From NCBI GenBank assembly GCA_016789485.1, contig JAEURE010000005.1:1-23604 (forward strand): a DNA stretch of 23,604 bases, in the 5' to 3' direction. A program made the position numbers and the translations under genes. How positions within the stretch are numbered: position 1 is the stretch's first letter; each line of letters opens with the position of its first letter. The notes below the pieces were generated by a model. That model was not told the origin of the DNA, searched no databases, and saw nothing but the letters and a program-made list of their open reading frames with translations. Shown here one piece after another: positions 1,828 to 5,609 of the stretch. Source of the DNA: Anaerolineales bacterium. GTDB taxonomy: Bacteria; Chloroflexota; Anaerolineae; Anaerolineales; Villigracilaceae.

Positions 1828-2236
1828 CGTTGGTTAATCACAATTAAATAACGGAGATACAAGCGGCTGGGTCTTGCGCAGCAAGATCACGAGGTGGAGG
1901 TTCTCCCGTGCGAACGGGACGCTAATTACCAAGTTCCCCCCTCTCTTTTAGGAGAGGGTCGGATAAGGTAAGAAAATCGGATAGATCAGCGGATGCCTCT
2001 GAAGCCAGGTCACTGGCTTCCTTCTCCCTTCCAAAGAAAGCGGAATCGAGCAAAGGAGTTTAAAAAAACTCTATTGCTCGCCACCGAAAACCACGCGGCG
2101 ACGTGTGGGACAAGGTGGACGCAGTGAACAAGAGAATTGATCATGTTCAGTCAATTGCCTTGAAAAGTTGGAAGGGCGTTTCTTTTTAATACCAGTATGT
2201 ATTAAAACAGGTGTGCCCGGGCATGCCTGTTTTTTT
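1828..2236 (+). ncRNA. Unidentified large structured RNA (about 410 nt)
   Basis: A strong promoter and an intrinsic terminator bracket about 410 nt without a credible ORF. I see these helices in order: CCGTT/AACGG (1827-1854) with inner TTAAT-CACA-ATTAA; TCTTGC/GCAAGA (1872-1886); TCCCGT-GCGA-ACGGGA (1904-1919); TTACC/GGTAA (1926-1930 with 1967-1971) enclosing CCCTCTC/GAGAGGG (1939-1958); GAAGCCAG/CTGGCTTC (2001-2020). A perfect 9-bp long-range helix CCCTTCCAA (2026-2034) with TTGGAAGGG (2168-2176) then encloses three arms: a 34-nt hairpin (2047-2080), CCACC/GGTGG around CCACGCG-GCGA-CGTGTGG (2081-2118), and 2130-2161. A further hairpin is TTTTAATAC/GTATTAAAA (2184-2207). Two GCGA (GNRA) tetraloops and G-U pairs in two stems support the + strand. 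I cannot match it to RNase P RNA, tmRNA, SRP RNA, a riboswitch or an intron. Function unknown. Confidence 0.75.
2206..2236 (+). terminator. Intrinsic terminator of the unidentified RNA
   Basis: AACAGG (2206-2211) pairs with CCTGTT (2226-2231), with the self-complementary TGCCCGGGCA inside, and the hairpin runs into seven T (2230-2236). It overlaps the 3' arm of the preceding TTTTAATAC/GTATTAAAA hairpin by two bases. Confidence 0.8.
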
Positions 2237-2389: not shown

Positions 2390-3235
2390 ATGGACAATAC
2401 GATTGAACCTTCACAGCATTACAAATTGATCGAGCAAGCCATTCAGTTCATAGAGGCAAATGTGCAACGTCAGCCCGAACTGGAAGAAATCGCCTCTGCT
2501 GTCGGACTGAGTGAATATCATTTCCAGCGGTTGTTCACTCACTGGACGGGCATCAGCCCCAAACGTTTCATGCAATTTCTTACAAAGGAACATGCCAAGC
2601 GTTTGCTCAGCCAATCTGAGAACTTACTGGAAACCACGCACAAGATCGGGCTTTCCAGTCTCGGGCGCTTGCATGACCTCTTCGTCAACACAGAAGCGGT
2701 TACACCGGGTGAATACAAAACCGGTGGAGCGGGTCTCACCATCCGTTACGGAATTCATCCATCCCCGTTTGGAAAGTGCCTTATTGCAACCACCGAGCGC
2801 GGCATTTGCAATCTCAGTTTTGTGGACGGAAGCGAAGGGAAAGTGATTGACAGCCTTGTCGCAGATTGGCAGCAGGCAGAGATGATCGAAGATTACAAGT
2901 CCACTGCCCCGCTGGTCACACGCATCTTTTCGGAACTGGGAACTGGTACGCCTCTCAAGATTCATCTTCGCGGGACGAATTTCCAGATCAAAGTTTGGGA
3001 AGCGCTGCTCAGCATTCCATCAGGAGCAGTCACCACCTACGAATATCTCGCAGCGCAGATCGGCAATCCCAAAGCGGTACGCGCCGTCGGCTCGGCAGTT
3101 GGACACAACCCAATTGCGTATTTGATCCCATGCCATCGTGTGATCCGCAAAAATGGCGATTTTGGAAATTATTTGTATGGTTCCGCTCGAAAGAAAGTGA
3201 TCCTCGCAAGAGAATTTAGCGCAAGTGATGCGTAA
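2390..3235 (+). CDS. Ada-like fusion of AraC-type DNA-binding domain and O6-methylguanine-DNA methyltransferase
   Basis: The 281-residue protein has an AraC-type helix-turn-helix region (about 12-110; EIASAVGLSEYHFQRLF at 33-49) and a C-terminal DNA methyltransferase domain (about 120-278). The active-site motif IPCHRV has its acceptor cysteine at C248, preceded by the RAVGSAVGHNP segment. Family members remove methyl groups from O6-methylguanine by irreversible transfer to that cysteine. The N-terminal zinc domain of E. coli Ada, which senses methylphosphotriesters, is absent, so any gene regulation must be triggered differently. The motif after the active site reads GNYLYGSARKK instead of the more common GGYRWG..RK. 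The start has a good site, AAAGGAG, 6 bases before the ATG. The EamA gene follows closely and is probably cotranscribed. Confidence 0.9.
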   Translation: MDNTIEPSQHYKLIEQAIQFIEANVQRQPELEEIASAVGLSEYHFQRLFTHWTGISPKRFMQFLTKEHAKRLLSQSENLLETTHKIGLSSLGRLHDLFVNTEAVTPGEYKTGGAGLTIRYGIHPSPFGKCLIATTERGICNLSFVDGSEGKVIDSLVADWQQAEMIEDYKSTAPLVTRIFSELGTGTPLKIHLRGTNFQIKVWEALLSIPSGAVTTYEYLAAQIGNPKAVRAVGSAVGHNPIAYLIPCHRVIRKNGDFGNYLYGSARKKVILAREFSASDA

Positions 3236-3258
3236 GCATGGCTTGCAAAAAGGAAAAA

Positions 3259-4185
3259 ATGAAGTCTAAAATTTGGCTGGCTTTACTGGCACTCTACATT
3301 GTTTGGGGTTCAACATACCTGGGGATCAAAGTCGCGATCGAGACCATCCCTCCGTTTTTTCACGCCTCGATTCGATTCCTCATCTCAGGCATCATCCTAG
3401 TCATCTGGCAGCGTTCCGCAGGCCAGGCAATGCCTACGCGCAAGCAATGGGTTTCCACCGCAATTATCGGCACCTTGCTGTTGCTTGGCGGTAATGGACT
3501 GGTTGCCTGGGCAGAACAAACCATTCCATCCGGAATTGCCGCGCTCATCATCGCCTCCGTTCCAATGTTCCTGGTTGTTTTTGAGGCAATTCGTCCAAAC
3601 GGAGTAAAGCCAAACTGGCAGGGCATCCTCGGGCTGTTGATCGGTTTTGTAGGTATTTTCATCCTGGTAGGGCCCTCTGAATTATCGGGAAGCACCACAA
3701 AGCTAAATCCCTTTGGCGTGGCAGCCCTGCTTCTGGCGTGTTTATTTTGGGCGTCCGGTTCCATTTATAGTAAAACTGCGGACCTGCCAAAATCATCCCT
3801 GATGAACACTGGCGCGCAAATGTTAATGGGAAGTATCAGCCTGCTCATCATTTCGTTGATCTCAGGCGAGTTACATGGCTGGGACGTCACTGCTGTTTCA
3901 ACACGCTCGTTATATGGGCTGGCATATCTTATTTTTGTGGGATCGCTGGTTGGATTCGTTTCGTATGGCTGGTTATTACAGAATGCGCCCATATCTCTTG
4001 TGGCAACCTATGCTTATGTCAACCCGATCGTTGCAGTGTTACTGGGGGTATGGTTTGCCAACGAAGCGCTGGAACCGCGCATCTGGATCGCAACAGCGAT
4101 CATTATCGGCTCGGTAATATTCATAAACAGCACCAGGCCAAAGATTAAGTATGAAGCGGAGGAGGTCAGTGAAACCATATCGTAA
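3259..4185 (+). CDS. EamA/DMT-family transporter
   Basis: The 308-residue, very hydrophobic protein has two EamA repeats of about five membrane helices each. The first starts with YIVWGSTYLGIKVAIE, a typical signature of the drug/metabolite transporter superfamily (YedA/RhaT-like). GNGLVAWAEQTIPSGIAALI and the second-repeat segment VATYAYVNPIVAVLLGVWFANE are also characteristic. It acts in the cytoplasmic membrane; the substrate cannot be read from the sequence. An upstream in-frame ATG at 3238 lacks a ribosome binding site, whereas the ATG at 3259 follows AAGGA, so 3259 is preferred. Either start places it within 25 bases of the Ada-like stop, suggesting one transcript. Export of a toxic metabolite would fit the DNA-repair neighbour, but that is a guess. 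Confidence 0.88.
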   Translation: MKSKIWLALLALYIVWGSTYLGIKVAIETIPPFFHASIRFLISGIILVIWQRSAGQAMPTRKQWVSTAIIGTLLLLGGNGLVAWAEQTIPSGIAALIIASVPMFLVVFEAIRPNGVKPNWQGILGLLIGFVGIFILVGPSELSGSTTKLNPFGVAALLLACLFWASGSIYSKTADLPKSSLMNTGAQMLMGSISLLIISLISGELHGWDVTAVSTRSLYGLAYLIFVGSLVGFVSYGWLLQNAPISLVATYAYVNPIVAVLLGVWFANEALEPRIWIATAIIIGSVIFINSTRPKIKYEAEEVSETIS

Positions 4186-4268: not shown

Positions 4269-5609
4269 ATGGACGGAAAAGATTTGCTTAAGAAAGTCAA
4301 GGAAGATAATGTCAAGTTCATGTCGCTTCAATTCACCGATGTGATGGGCGCGGTAAAGAGTGTGGATATGCCGATCCGCCACCTTGAAGATGTTTTGAAG
4401 GATGGCGCGTGGTTCGATGGCTCGTCCGTGGAAGGGTTTGCCCGCATTCAGGAAAGTGATATGCGCCTGAAAATCGACCCTGAAACCTATGCCGTGCTGC
4501 CGTGGTCTGCGCCGGATTCAAAGCGTGCACGCGTGTTCTGCGATATCTACACACCCGCCGGTGACCCCTTCGACGGCGATCCGCGTGGCGCCTTGAAGCG
4601 CATCCTCAAGAAGATCGCTGAACGGGGCTGGATGCTCAACATCGGGCCTGAACCTGAGTTCTTTCTGTTCAAGGCTTCGGATGGAAAAGGCGTTCATCCT
4701 GTCCCCCACGATACGGGCGGTTACTTTGATTTTTCCTCCTTCGATGAAGCCGTGGTCGTCCGCACCGCATTGATGGATGCGCTTGACGCAATGGGATTGG
4801 ATGTGGAAGTGGGACACCATGAAGTTGCGCTTGGTCAGCATGAAATTGATTTTCGCTTCGCTGACGCGCTCAAGGCTGCGGATAACGTCCTGACGCTTAA
4901 GTACACCGTAAAAGCGATTGCCGCCCAACACGGACTCGTCGCTTCGTTCATGCCCAAGCCTGTGTACGGCATCAACGGCTCTGGCATGCACTGTCACCAA
5001 TCCCTCTTCGACATCAAGACTGGCGCCAATCTTTTCTTTGACGCAAAAGACGAAGCTCATCTTTCACCTTTGGCTTATTCATTCATTGCCGGTCAGCTGG
5101 AACATGCCCGTGCGCTCGCCGGTGTAGTTGCCCCGACTGTGAACTCTTACAAACGTTTGGTTCCCGGCTACGAAGCACCCGTGTATATCGGTTGGGCTCA
5201 ACAGAATCGCTCGGCGCTGATCCGTATTCCGCGCTACACCGAAGGACGCGACAAGGCTGTCCGCGCTGAACTGCGCTTCCCTGACCCGTCCTCGAACCCA
5301 TATCTGGCTTTCACAGTGATGCTTGCCGCCGCCCTCGATGGCATTGACAAGAATATGAAGGCTCCGAAGGCATTGAACAACATCAATCTCTATCACCTGA
5401 ACAAGGAAGAACGCACCAAGTTGGGAGTGACCGAATTGCCCGGCTCATTGGCTGAATCCCTGAGCGAATTGGAAAAGAACGAAGTGCTAAAATCTGCTCT
5501 CGGCGATTACCTCTTTGAGGCCTACCTGCGCGCGAAGTGGGAAGAGTGGGATGAGTTCCGCCTGCGTGTGACCGATTACGAGATCGAAAAGTATTTGGAA
5601 ATCGCATAA
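4269..5609 (+). CDS. glnA: Glutamine synthetase, type I-alpha
   Basis: The 446-residue enzyme makes glutamine from glutamate, ammonia and ATP in the cytoplasm. Visible motifs are WFDGSSVEGFARIQESDM (48-65), GPEPEFFLF, VEVGHHEVALGQHEIDFRF, NGSGMHCHQSLF, APTVNSYKRLVPGYEAPVY (ATP site) and ELRFPDPSSNPYLAF. Length and the GFAR motif (R59, aligning with the feedback-inhibition arginine R62 of Bacillus GlnA) indicate the GSI-alpha subtype. That subtype lacks the 25-residue insertion and is controlled by feedback and protein partners, not by adenylylation. AAGGAG lies 9 bases before the ATG. A short leader with alternative hairpins separates it from the EamA gene, so it may be expressed by readthrough or from its own weak promoter. 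A very strong terminator follows. Confidence 0.97.
   Translation: MDGKDLLKKVKEDNVKFMSLQFTDVMGAVKSVDMPIRHLEDVLKDGAWFDGSSVEGFARIQESDMRLKIDPETYAVLPWSAPDSKRARVFCDIYTPAGDPFDGDPRGALKRILKKIAERGWMLNIGPEPEFFLFKASDGKGVHPVPHDTGGYFDFSSFDEAVVVRTALMDALDAMGLDVEVGHHEVALGQHEIDFRFADALKAADNVLTLKYTVKAIAAQHGLVASFMPKPVYGINGSGMHCHQSLFDIKTGANLFFDAKDEAHLSPLAYSFIAGQLEHARALAGVVAPTVNSYKRLVPGYEAPVYIGWAQQNRSALIRIPRYTEGRDKAVRAELRFPDPSSNPYLAFTVMLAAALDGIDKNMKAPKALNNINLYHLNKEERTKLGVTELPGSLAESLSELEKNEVLKSALGDYLFEAYLRAKWEEWDEFRLRVTDYEIEKYLEIA

Follow-up and report, generated by a model that had tools for sequence, protein, structure and literature searches.

Locus organization

The window, i.e. the whole stretch of DNA analysed (23,604 nucleotides of an Anaerolineales bacterium, contig JAEURE010000005.1), contains a structured RNA on the + strand at 1828-2236, preceded by a consensus promoter and ending in an intrinsic terminator. 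Its surroundings are as follows.

1597-1774, +: 6S RNA gene (RF00013, 74.7 bits), directly upstream of the ribozyme-like RNA
1792-1821, +: sigma-70-type promoter; TTGACA (1792-1797), 18-base spacer, TAAAAT (1816-1821)
1828-1862, +: 5' leader that would be removed by cleavage; start placed from the promoter
2204-2236, +: intrinsic terminator with a sequence-conserved top (GCCC..GC)
2390-3235, +: AraC-HTH / 6-O-methylguanine-DNA methyltransferase (MGMT) gene, first of the string (Pfam)
3238-4185, +: EamA transporter gene (Pfam)
4269-5609, +: glnA, glutamine synthetase, 446 aa (Pfam, 419 bits); the downstream gene shared with other families

The initial annotation had described a large, helix-rich RNA with its own signals and no credible gene, and this outline holds. 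The promoter matches the consensus at 11 of 12 positions and its form is kept in homologues: TTGACN, 15 to 19 bases and TANNNT occur upstream in 35 of the 38 homologues for which 75 nt or more of preceding sequence is available; in shuffles the frequency is 0.5%. The terminator comprises a stem of 13 pairs at 2204-2233 plus a T tail and is conserved in homologues, with two-sided changes in six of ten pairs. A terminator scan of 1450-2450 found two sites where shuffles yield 1.4; the scan alone is thus not significant, and significance comes from conservation. No ORF of at least 60 aa overlaps 1757-2389 on either strand, and the next gene starts about 150 nt after the terminator. The RNA is read on the + strand, as annotated; the folding energy of 1828-2236 has z = -6.57 on the + strand and -4.04 on the - strand, and both GCGA tetraloops are present (1910-1913 and 2098-2101).

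The terminator top (2215-2222) reads GCC[CU]nnGC in most of the 33 aligned rows, across families, which is unusual for a plain terminator. A second promoter-like site with 9 of 12 matches lies at 2252-2281; shuffles give 1.3 sites. The 6S RNA neighbours the ribozyme in many genomes of the same family, and in some (G020, G025) the two are about 1.6-1.7 kb apart. We rejected a single transcript joining 6S RNA and the RNA studied here: the former is a separate upstream gene, and the spacing varies among genomes.

Homology to the glmS ribozyme

At gathering score, the 6S RNA is the sole Rfam match in the whole window. With permissive filters, the best match in 1770-2320 is the glmS ribozyme (RF00234), whose model aligns over its full length (1-167) with 1851-2133 at 17.9 bits (E 0.06), short of the gathering score of 37 bits. 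The other Rfam matches here, L20 leader (E 0.95) and HOXA11-AS1 (E 1.3), are at chance level. Taken alone, the 17.9-bit alignment is weak.

Model R1 was built from the 28 rows of alignment A1 (27 of 46 nhmmer-chosen rows plus L055, with long-insert or cut-end rows omitted); these include L082, which precedes a MOSC gene rather than glnA, and no glmS leader was given. R1 matched all 51 test sources (52 matches, some sources overlapping), with glmS leaders at E-values, rough as they are, of 1.5e-10 to 9e-27, and also 65 further sources (66 matches). Each type is thus found by the other's model, by RF00234 weakly. The genome of the window holds a second, glmS-class copy (C56), which exceeds the Rfam cut-off and ends at a contig edge with its downstream gene out of view; own-genome R1 scores are 223.8 bits for C433 and 70.1 bits for C56.

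Over 101 genomes, RF00234 matched 88 at E <= 1, of which 36 lie above the cut-off; the window's own copy is absent among the matches listed in these whole-genome searches. One homologue of the window RNA (G085:C1:114829-115046), followed 106 nt on by a glnA match, reaches 42.9 bits and passes the cut-off, while the other listed copies of its type score 13-34 bits, below it. BLASTN with 1590-2240 gave matches in 78 of 101 genomes, own included; this query includes the 6S RNA, so part of these genomes match via 6S only.

Judged by sequence and conserved structure, the RNA is related to the glmS ribozyme, though divergent, and forms a separate subtype with an intact catalytic core. It is to be regarded as a homologue of the RF00234 family, not a member by Rfam's own rule. 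The initial annotation had proposed an unknown family and had found none of the marker motifs of common riboswitches; both statements were wrong, as glmS ribozyme motifs fill about 1853-2127. A free-standing non-coding RNA of unknown family is rejected by this homology, namely by the RF00234 alignment and the R1 matches.

Architecture and covariation

The elements of the RNA, all on the + strand, are listed below; "two-sided" denotes pairs with changes on both sides.

1853-1857 with 2023-2027, +: P0 leader helix, GGAGA with UCUCC; 98.8% of cells paired, 3 of 5 pairs two-sided
1862-1863, +: predicted self-cleavage site A-1|G1; all 33 glnA-type rows read A, G, C, G at 1862-1865
1870-1888, +: P1 hairpin; 7 of 8 pairs two-sided
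1889-1894, +: catalytic ACGAGG; 100% in 33 glnA-type, 59 glmS-group and 4 glutamate synthase (GOGAT) rows
1896-2000, +: P2, 1896-1900 with 1996-2000; 100% paired, 1 of 5 pairs two-sided
1904-1919, +: P2a, hairpin inserted in P2; 6 of 6 pairs two-sided
1926-1971, +: P2b, hairpin inserted in P2, from folds and alignments
1976-1978, +: cofactor-pocket region A, U, C; 100% in 33 glnA-type rows
1987-1992, +: 3' strand of the putative pseudoknot P2.2, whose 5' strand would be 1864-1869; unchanged in all 33 glnA-type rows
2001-2020, +: P3 hairpin; 5 of 6 pairs two-sided
2010-2013 with 2124-2127, +: pseudoknot of P3 loop UCAC with GUGA; outer pair U-A in 25 rows, C-G in 6, U-G in 2
2026-2176, +: outer helix, 2026-2034 with 2168-2176; exact, with 2026-2027 shared with P0
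2040-2122, +: P4 domain; 2040-2042/2120-2122, 2081-2085/2114-2118 and 2091-2097/2102-2108, with 98%, 79% and 90.5% of cells paired
2087-2090 and 2110-2113, +: P4 internal loop IL4, adenines kept
2098-2101, +: P4 GNRA loop GCGA, predicted to dock on P1

Here P0 is our name for the helix spanning the cleavage site. By glmS ribozyme numbering, we assign the A and U of 1976-1978 to the cofactor-pocket region.

Alignment A2 comprises 33 of 46 rows and 495 columns; 71 pairs in 12 helices were scored. In it 95.0% of cells are paired, and 44 pairs and 244 cells carry two-sided changes. Slid by one to three columns, the same structure gives 38-45% paired cells and 12-21 two-sided pairs; because the structure was drawn on the window sequence, the slid pairing control is biased towards it, and two-sided changes are the better measure. 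Compensatory changes across homologues thus exist for the RNA at large, and 14 of 15 pairs of the P4 domain are two-sided. Of the double-pseudoknot core that marks the family (P2, P2.1, P2.2), P2 has one covarying pair, and P2.2 pairs in all 33 rows, never varies and is therefore compatible with the alignment rather than proven by it; the P3-loop pairs other than the outer one are nearly invariant as well. Functional roles of IL4 and L4 in the glmS ribozyme are described in excerpts of PMC11602151.

The perfect 9-bp helix that the initial annotation singled out as the strongest is exact and conserved, with 91.6% of cells paired against 34-69% when slid; its two-sided changes (one of nine pairs) are no more than in shuffles or slid versions. 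Being nearly invariant, it is neither proven nor refuted by covariation. Separately, the GUUUAAAAAAACUC loop (window 2058-2070) is conserved in an optional P4 hairpin of many same-family A2 rows.

Genes downstream

In the window, the RNA is followed by MGMT, EamA and glnA and does not lie in the 5' UTR of glmS. We read the neighbourhoods of its homologues by phmmer with the window proteins and one GlmS. The order RNA-MGMT-EamA-glnA recurs in most loci of the window's family; different arrangements in this family are those of L171, with glnA direct (281 nt), and L078, with EamA-glnA. In other families of the order glnA comes directly after the RNA, 60-169 nt from core to match start (563 in L084). 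Placement of this type of RNA upstream of glnA is thus conserved across families.

Other targets occur inside the order too: glutamate synthase (PF01645) follows L157 and L088 (by domain scan, the latter in two frames) and L090 (assigned by a near-identical start), and L082 precedes MOSC and DinB genes. Outside the order, GlmS lies within 320 nt in 43 of 52 sampled loci and after one gene in three (L136-L138). Of the remaining loci (L176, L139, L145, L147, L179, L151), L176 precedes glutamate synthase and L139 a FAD/Fe-S protein. The gene intervening in L136-L138 encodes GTPase and SIS domains, according to a scan of L136.

To survey named genomes, we searched about 85,000 species, one genome each, for a conserved-core pattern of the glnA type, which favours that type. 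The 59 stretches found all carry titles naming Chloroflexota or a group within it. Queried with five proteins only, so that other genes in between are possible, 45 of the 59 have glnA downstream: glnA only in 21, MGMT-EamA-glnA in 20, EamA-glnA in 2, and glnA first with another match in 2. For the 23 direct-glnA stretches, the first match lies 231-493 nt from the pattern. In eight further stretches MGMT or EamA is seen and the DNA ends within 2.5 kb, before glnA could appear; three offer too little DNA, less than 600 nt. GOGAT is the first match in the last three, two of which score only 169 and 255 bits; the strong one is L218 (1302 bits, RNA-GOGAT-MGMT-EamA), the weaker ones are L255 and L221.

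These contexts bear on the stand-alone status implied by the initial annotation. Transcription might always stop at 2236, with glnA using its own promoter and the RNA acting in trans as a free-standing small RNA. The RNA's own promoter, strong terminator and distance of about 150 nt to the next gene fit this, as do the two genes preceding glnA in the window's family and the promoter-like site at 2252-2281. Nevertheless, the short distance to glnA elsewhere leaves little room for a promoter behind the hairpin, five copies (the f13 copies L104 and L172-L175) have no terminator in our scan, and across families the RNA precedes the same genes. We therefore judge a trans-acting RNA quite unlikely; the promoter and terminator stand, the stand-alone status is doubtful. 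In our view the RNA is probably a glmS-class self-cleaving ribozyme of a separate subtype that serves Anaerolineae as 5' leader for a string of genes including glnA.

Two loci combine both targets. In L172 (G421, 395-2671), ribozyme-glnA-ribozyme-glmS stand in tandem within 2.3 kb, possibly a trace of the duplication by which glnA acquired its ribozyme. L084 (G096:C26) carries two copies about 4 kb apart on opposite strands, one of the glnA type with glnA, the other with glmS.

Distribution and descent

R1 matches are found in 92 of 101 genomes of the order (1e-6), 224 of 396 of the class (E <= 0.001) and 71 of 301 of the phylum (1e-4). By our count, 46 of the 101 genomes of the order hold a match of at least 130 bits; all 21 copies in this score band that were classified by gene context sat in glnA strings, save L082.

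A quick IQ-TREE phylogeny (102 rows, 207 columns) places the window in a starred clade (99) of 16 glnA rows from its own family, without L171 and L078. Of the glutamate synthase copies, L088 and L090 group with glnA-type rows, L157 sits in a starred clade (98) whose other members are glmS leaders, and L176 takes a different position. The tree counts six label changes for glmS, two for glnA and three for GOGAT; with 51 of 99 inner branches open, it can only guide an estimate of how often recruitment took place.

The catalytic core in the glnA type and the glmS group

Alignment A3 holds 102 matches from 100 sources, a subset of the loci collected: 33 glnA, 4 GOGAT and 6 other rows, the remaining 59 forming the glmS group by default, among them L032, whose sequence stops at a contig edge, and L136-L138, where one gene precedes GlmS. 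Within the glnA group, positions 1862-1865, 1889-1894, 1976-1979 and 1986-1993 are invariant. In the glmS group 1889-1894 is invariant, and the other core positions are conserved at 94-100% save 1985-1988 and flanks (position A1988 is A in 74% and G in 25%). The four GOGAT rows keep 1889-1894 and 1989-1993 intact, with 1973-1979 gapped or changed in one or two rows, either through misalignment around a long insert or through real change.

Excerpts of PMC11602151 name B. subtilis G39, G41, C54 and G67 as contacting A-1/G1, and G42 (T. tengcongensis G40) as an active-site residue. In our own mapping by motif, G39, G41, C54, G67 and G42 would correspond to window G1891, G1893, C1978, G1991 and G1894. 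All 33 glnA-type rows keep these residues, and across the 59 rows of the glmS group they are conserved at 94-100%.

The clear difference between the two aligned cores appears at +4/+5 (1866-1867). There the glnA type has GC in 27 of 33 rows (AC 3, TA 2, TC 1) and the 59-row glmS group CA in 39, CC in 12 or 13 and GC in at least two. The 59 named-genome stretches carry GC in 52, AC in 5 and TC in 1, the positions lying outside the stretch in one. The C able to pair with G1989 shifts from +4 to +5 in most glnA-type rows.

Such a change invites the question of the ligand. In variant riboswitches, gene association and binding-site letters have changed together. Likewise, the glnA/GOGAT subtype could use the same scaffold to sense another amine, e.g. 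glutamine, instead of glucosamine-6-phosphate (GlcN6P): its target genes have changed, GS and GOGAT being glutamine genes, and the +4/+5 change adjoins the cleavage site. Excerpts of PMC11602151 add that few active-site mutations suffice to remove the GlcN6P requirement. Yet the equivalents of G39, G41, G42, C54 and G67 do not change in any of the 33 glnA-type rows, and GC at +4/+5 also occurs in the glmS group, which makes a new cofactor unlikely in our estimation.

A degenerate copy that kept its fold and lost cleavage would agree with the window's score below the Rfam cut-off and with the second, glmS-class copy in the genome. On the other hand, conservation of the catalytic residues is no lower than in the glmS group (the glnA-type sample being less diverse), and the helices covary strongly; we give this explanation very little credence and take the ribozyme to be probably active.

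The terminator as a likely part of the expression platform

We scanned the DNA between RNA and gene by script for a hairpin followed by a T tail. The scan, strict enough to fail L081, which has such a hairpin in A2, found one in 16 of 27 copies before non-glmS genes and in one of 83 with GlmS first. The difference has p 3e-11 with kinship ignored, and stretch lengths differ between the groups; among the 83, GlmS lies over 1 kb away in five copies, and L045 and L102 are one GlmS locus entered twice. By class, the terminator is found in 4 of 5 MGMT/EamA-first, 7 of 16 glnA-direct and 3 of 4 GOGAT copies and in the single FAD and MOSC copies; nine glnA-direct copies have no terminator in the scan.

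Cleavage could in principle control this terminator. Cutting would free the 5' leader from C2026-C2027, which would then hold G2175-G2176; this would deprive GCCC (2215-2218) of its partner GGGC (2174-2177) and let the terminator form. GGGC and GCCC hardly vary and can indeed pair (91.9% of cells against 20-61% when slid), and the conserved letters of the terminator loop otherwise lack an explanation. Against this, the pairing has no covariation signal beyond shuffles, and RNAfold moves the opposite way, the antiterminator probability rising from about 0.19 in the uncut RNA to 0.35-0.37 in the cut one, with a terminator probability near 1 in both. As modelling gives it no support, we set this attenuator aside as highly improbable. 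With or without the 5' leader, RNAfold predicts the terminator with a probability near 1, so that no ligand-dependent switch is visible. A further candidate, pairing the hairpin after P4 with the 5' arm of the terminator, was inconsistent between rows by eye and was dropped.

Proposed mechanism and relation to known systems

The glmS ribozyme is the textbook metabolite-triggered self-cleaving RNA; GlmS makes GlcN6P from glutamine, itself the product of glutamine synthetase. Ribozymes of the glmS class use GlcN6P as cofactor, and the mRNA decays once it has been cut, as stated in PMC11602151, PMC10043782 and PMC2258182. For the ribozyme in the leader of glnA, the most likely function would be repression of GS/GOGAT genes by GlcN6P-triggered self-cleavage. 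GlcN6P, when plentiful, would bind the preformed pocket, the RNA would cleave itself at 1862|1863, and the transcript continuing into glnA would be destroyed; glutamine synthesis would fall when its amino-sugar product abounds. Most transcripts would stop at the terminator after about 410 nt, and the genes would depend on read-through.

The glmS ribozyme shares with the RNA described here the AGCG site, ACGAGG with the active-site guanine, a putative P2/P2.2 core, P3, the P4 adenine loop and the GNRA loop. The present type differs in its position before glnA or GOGAT, in +4/+5 and in the intrinsic terminator that often stands behind it. Its extra core hairpins and the leader helix across the cleavage site differ from the RF00234 type and are also seen in glmS leaders of the same bacteria. 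Deinococcus-Thermus glmS ribozyme variants, reported by McCown et al. in 2011, are said to have additional stems inside the catalytic core in like manner; those are reportedly glmS-linked, whereas here the target gene changes. The glutamine riboswitch known as glnA RNA controls glutamine synthetase genes as well and is a different RNA: Rfam at gathering score gives only 6S RNA in the window.

To our knowledge, the glmS ribozyme has almost only one target gene; the abstract of the 2011 survey reportedly places all but two glmS ribozymes in glmS mRNAs. Among the matches listed for open-access literature (titles and abstract openings, a scope outside which that survey lies), we found no natural glmS ribozyme before glnA or GOGAT. 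One paper among them, PMC10349072 on Plasmodium glutamine synthetase, contains both terms and presumably uses the ribozyme as a knock-down tool. What is new here are the target genes and the likely expression platform of a known ribozyme class in a group of Chloroflexota, where this sensor has apparently been put to use in nitrogen assimilation.

If true, self-cleaving ribozymes can change to another pathway and be combined with a terminator, and the level of a cell-wall precursor is tied to nitrogen assimilation. A bolder version, which we put forward tentatively and hold to be rather doubtful, sees a glmS subtype rebuilt as a nitrogen-assimilation sensor for GS-GOGAT: glnA would have been recruited about once and glutamate synthase two or three times, the terminator often added, and the changed register may mean another amine cofactor, e.g. 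glutamine. The conserved glnA-linked clade and the copies before glutamate synthase are a ready test set for changed cofactor specificity.

Some loci outside the order have further neighbours. In L145 (868-1971) the ribozyme lies near a DegT/DnrJ aminotransferase gene, and the next ORF starts like the L147 protein; in L147 (2073-3224) an opposite-strand ORF is followed by a Gfo/Idh oxidoreductase gene. Both enzymes are possible amino-sugar targets. In L163, from about 782, the GlmS frame is apparently broken by a long insert beginning CLAPDTLIQLADG, which resembles an intein by its motif.
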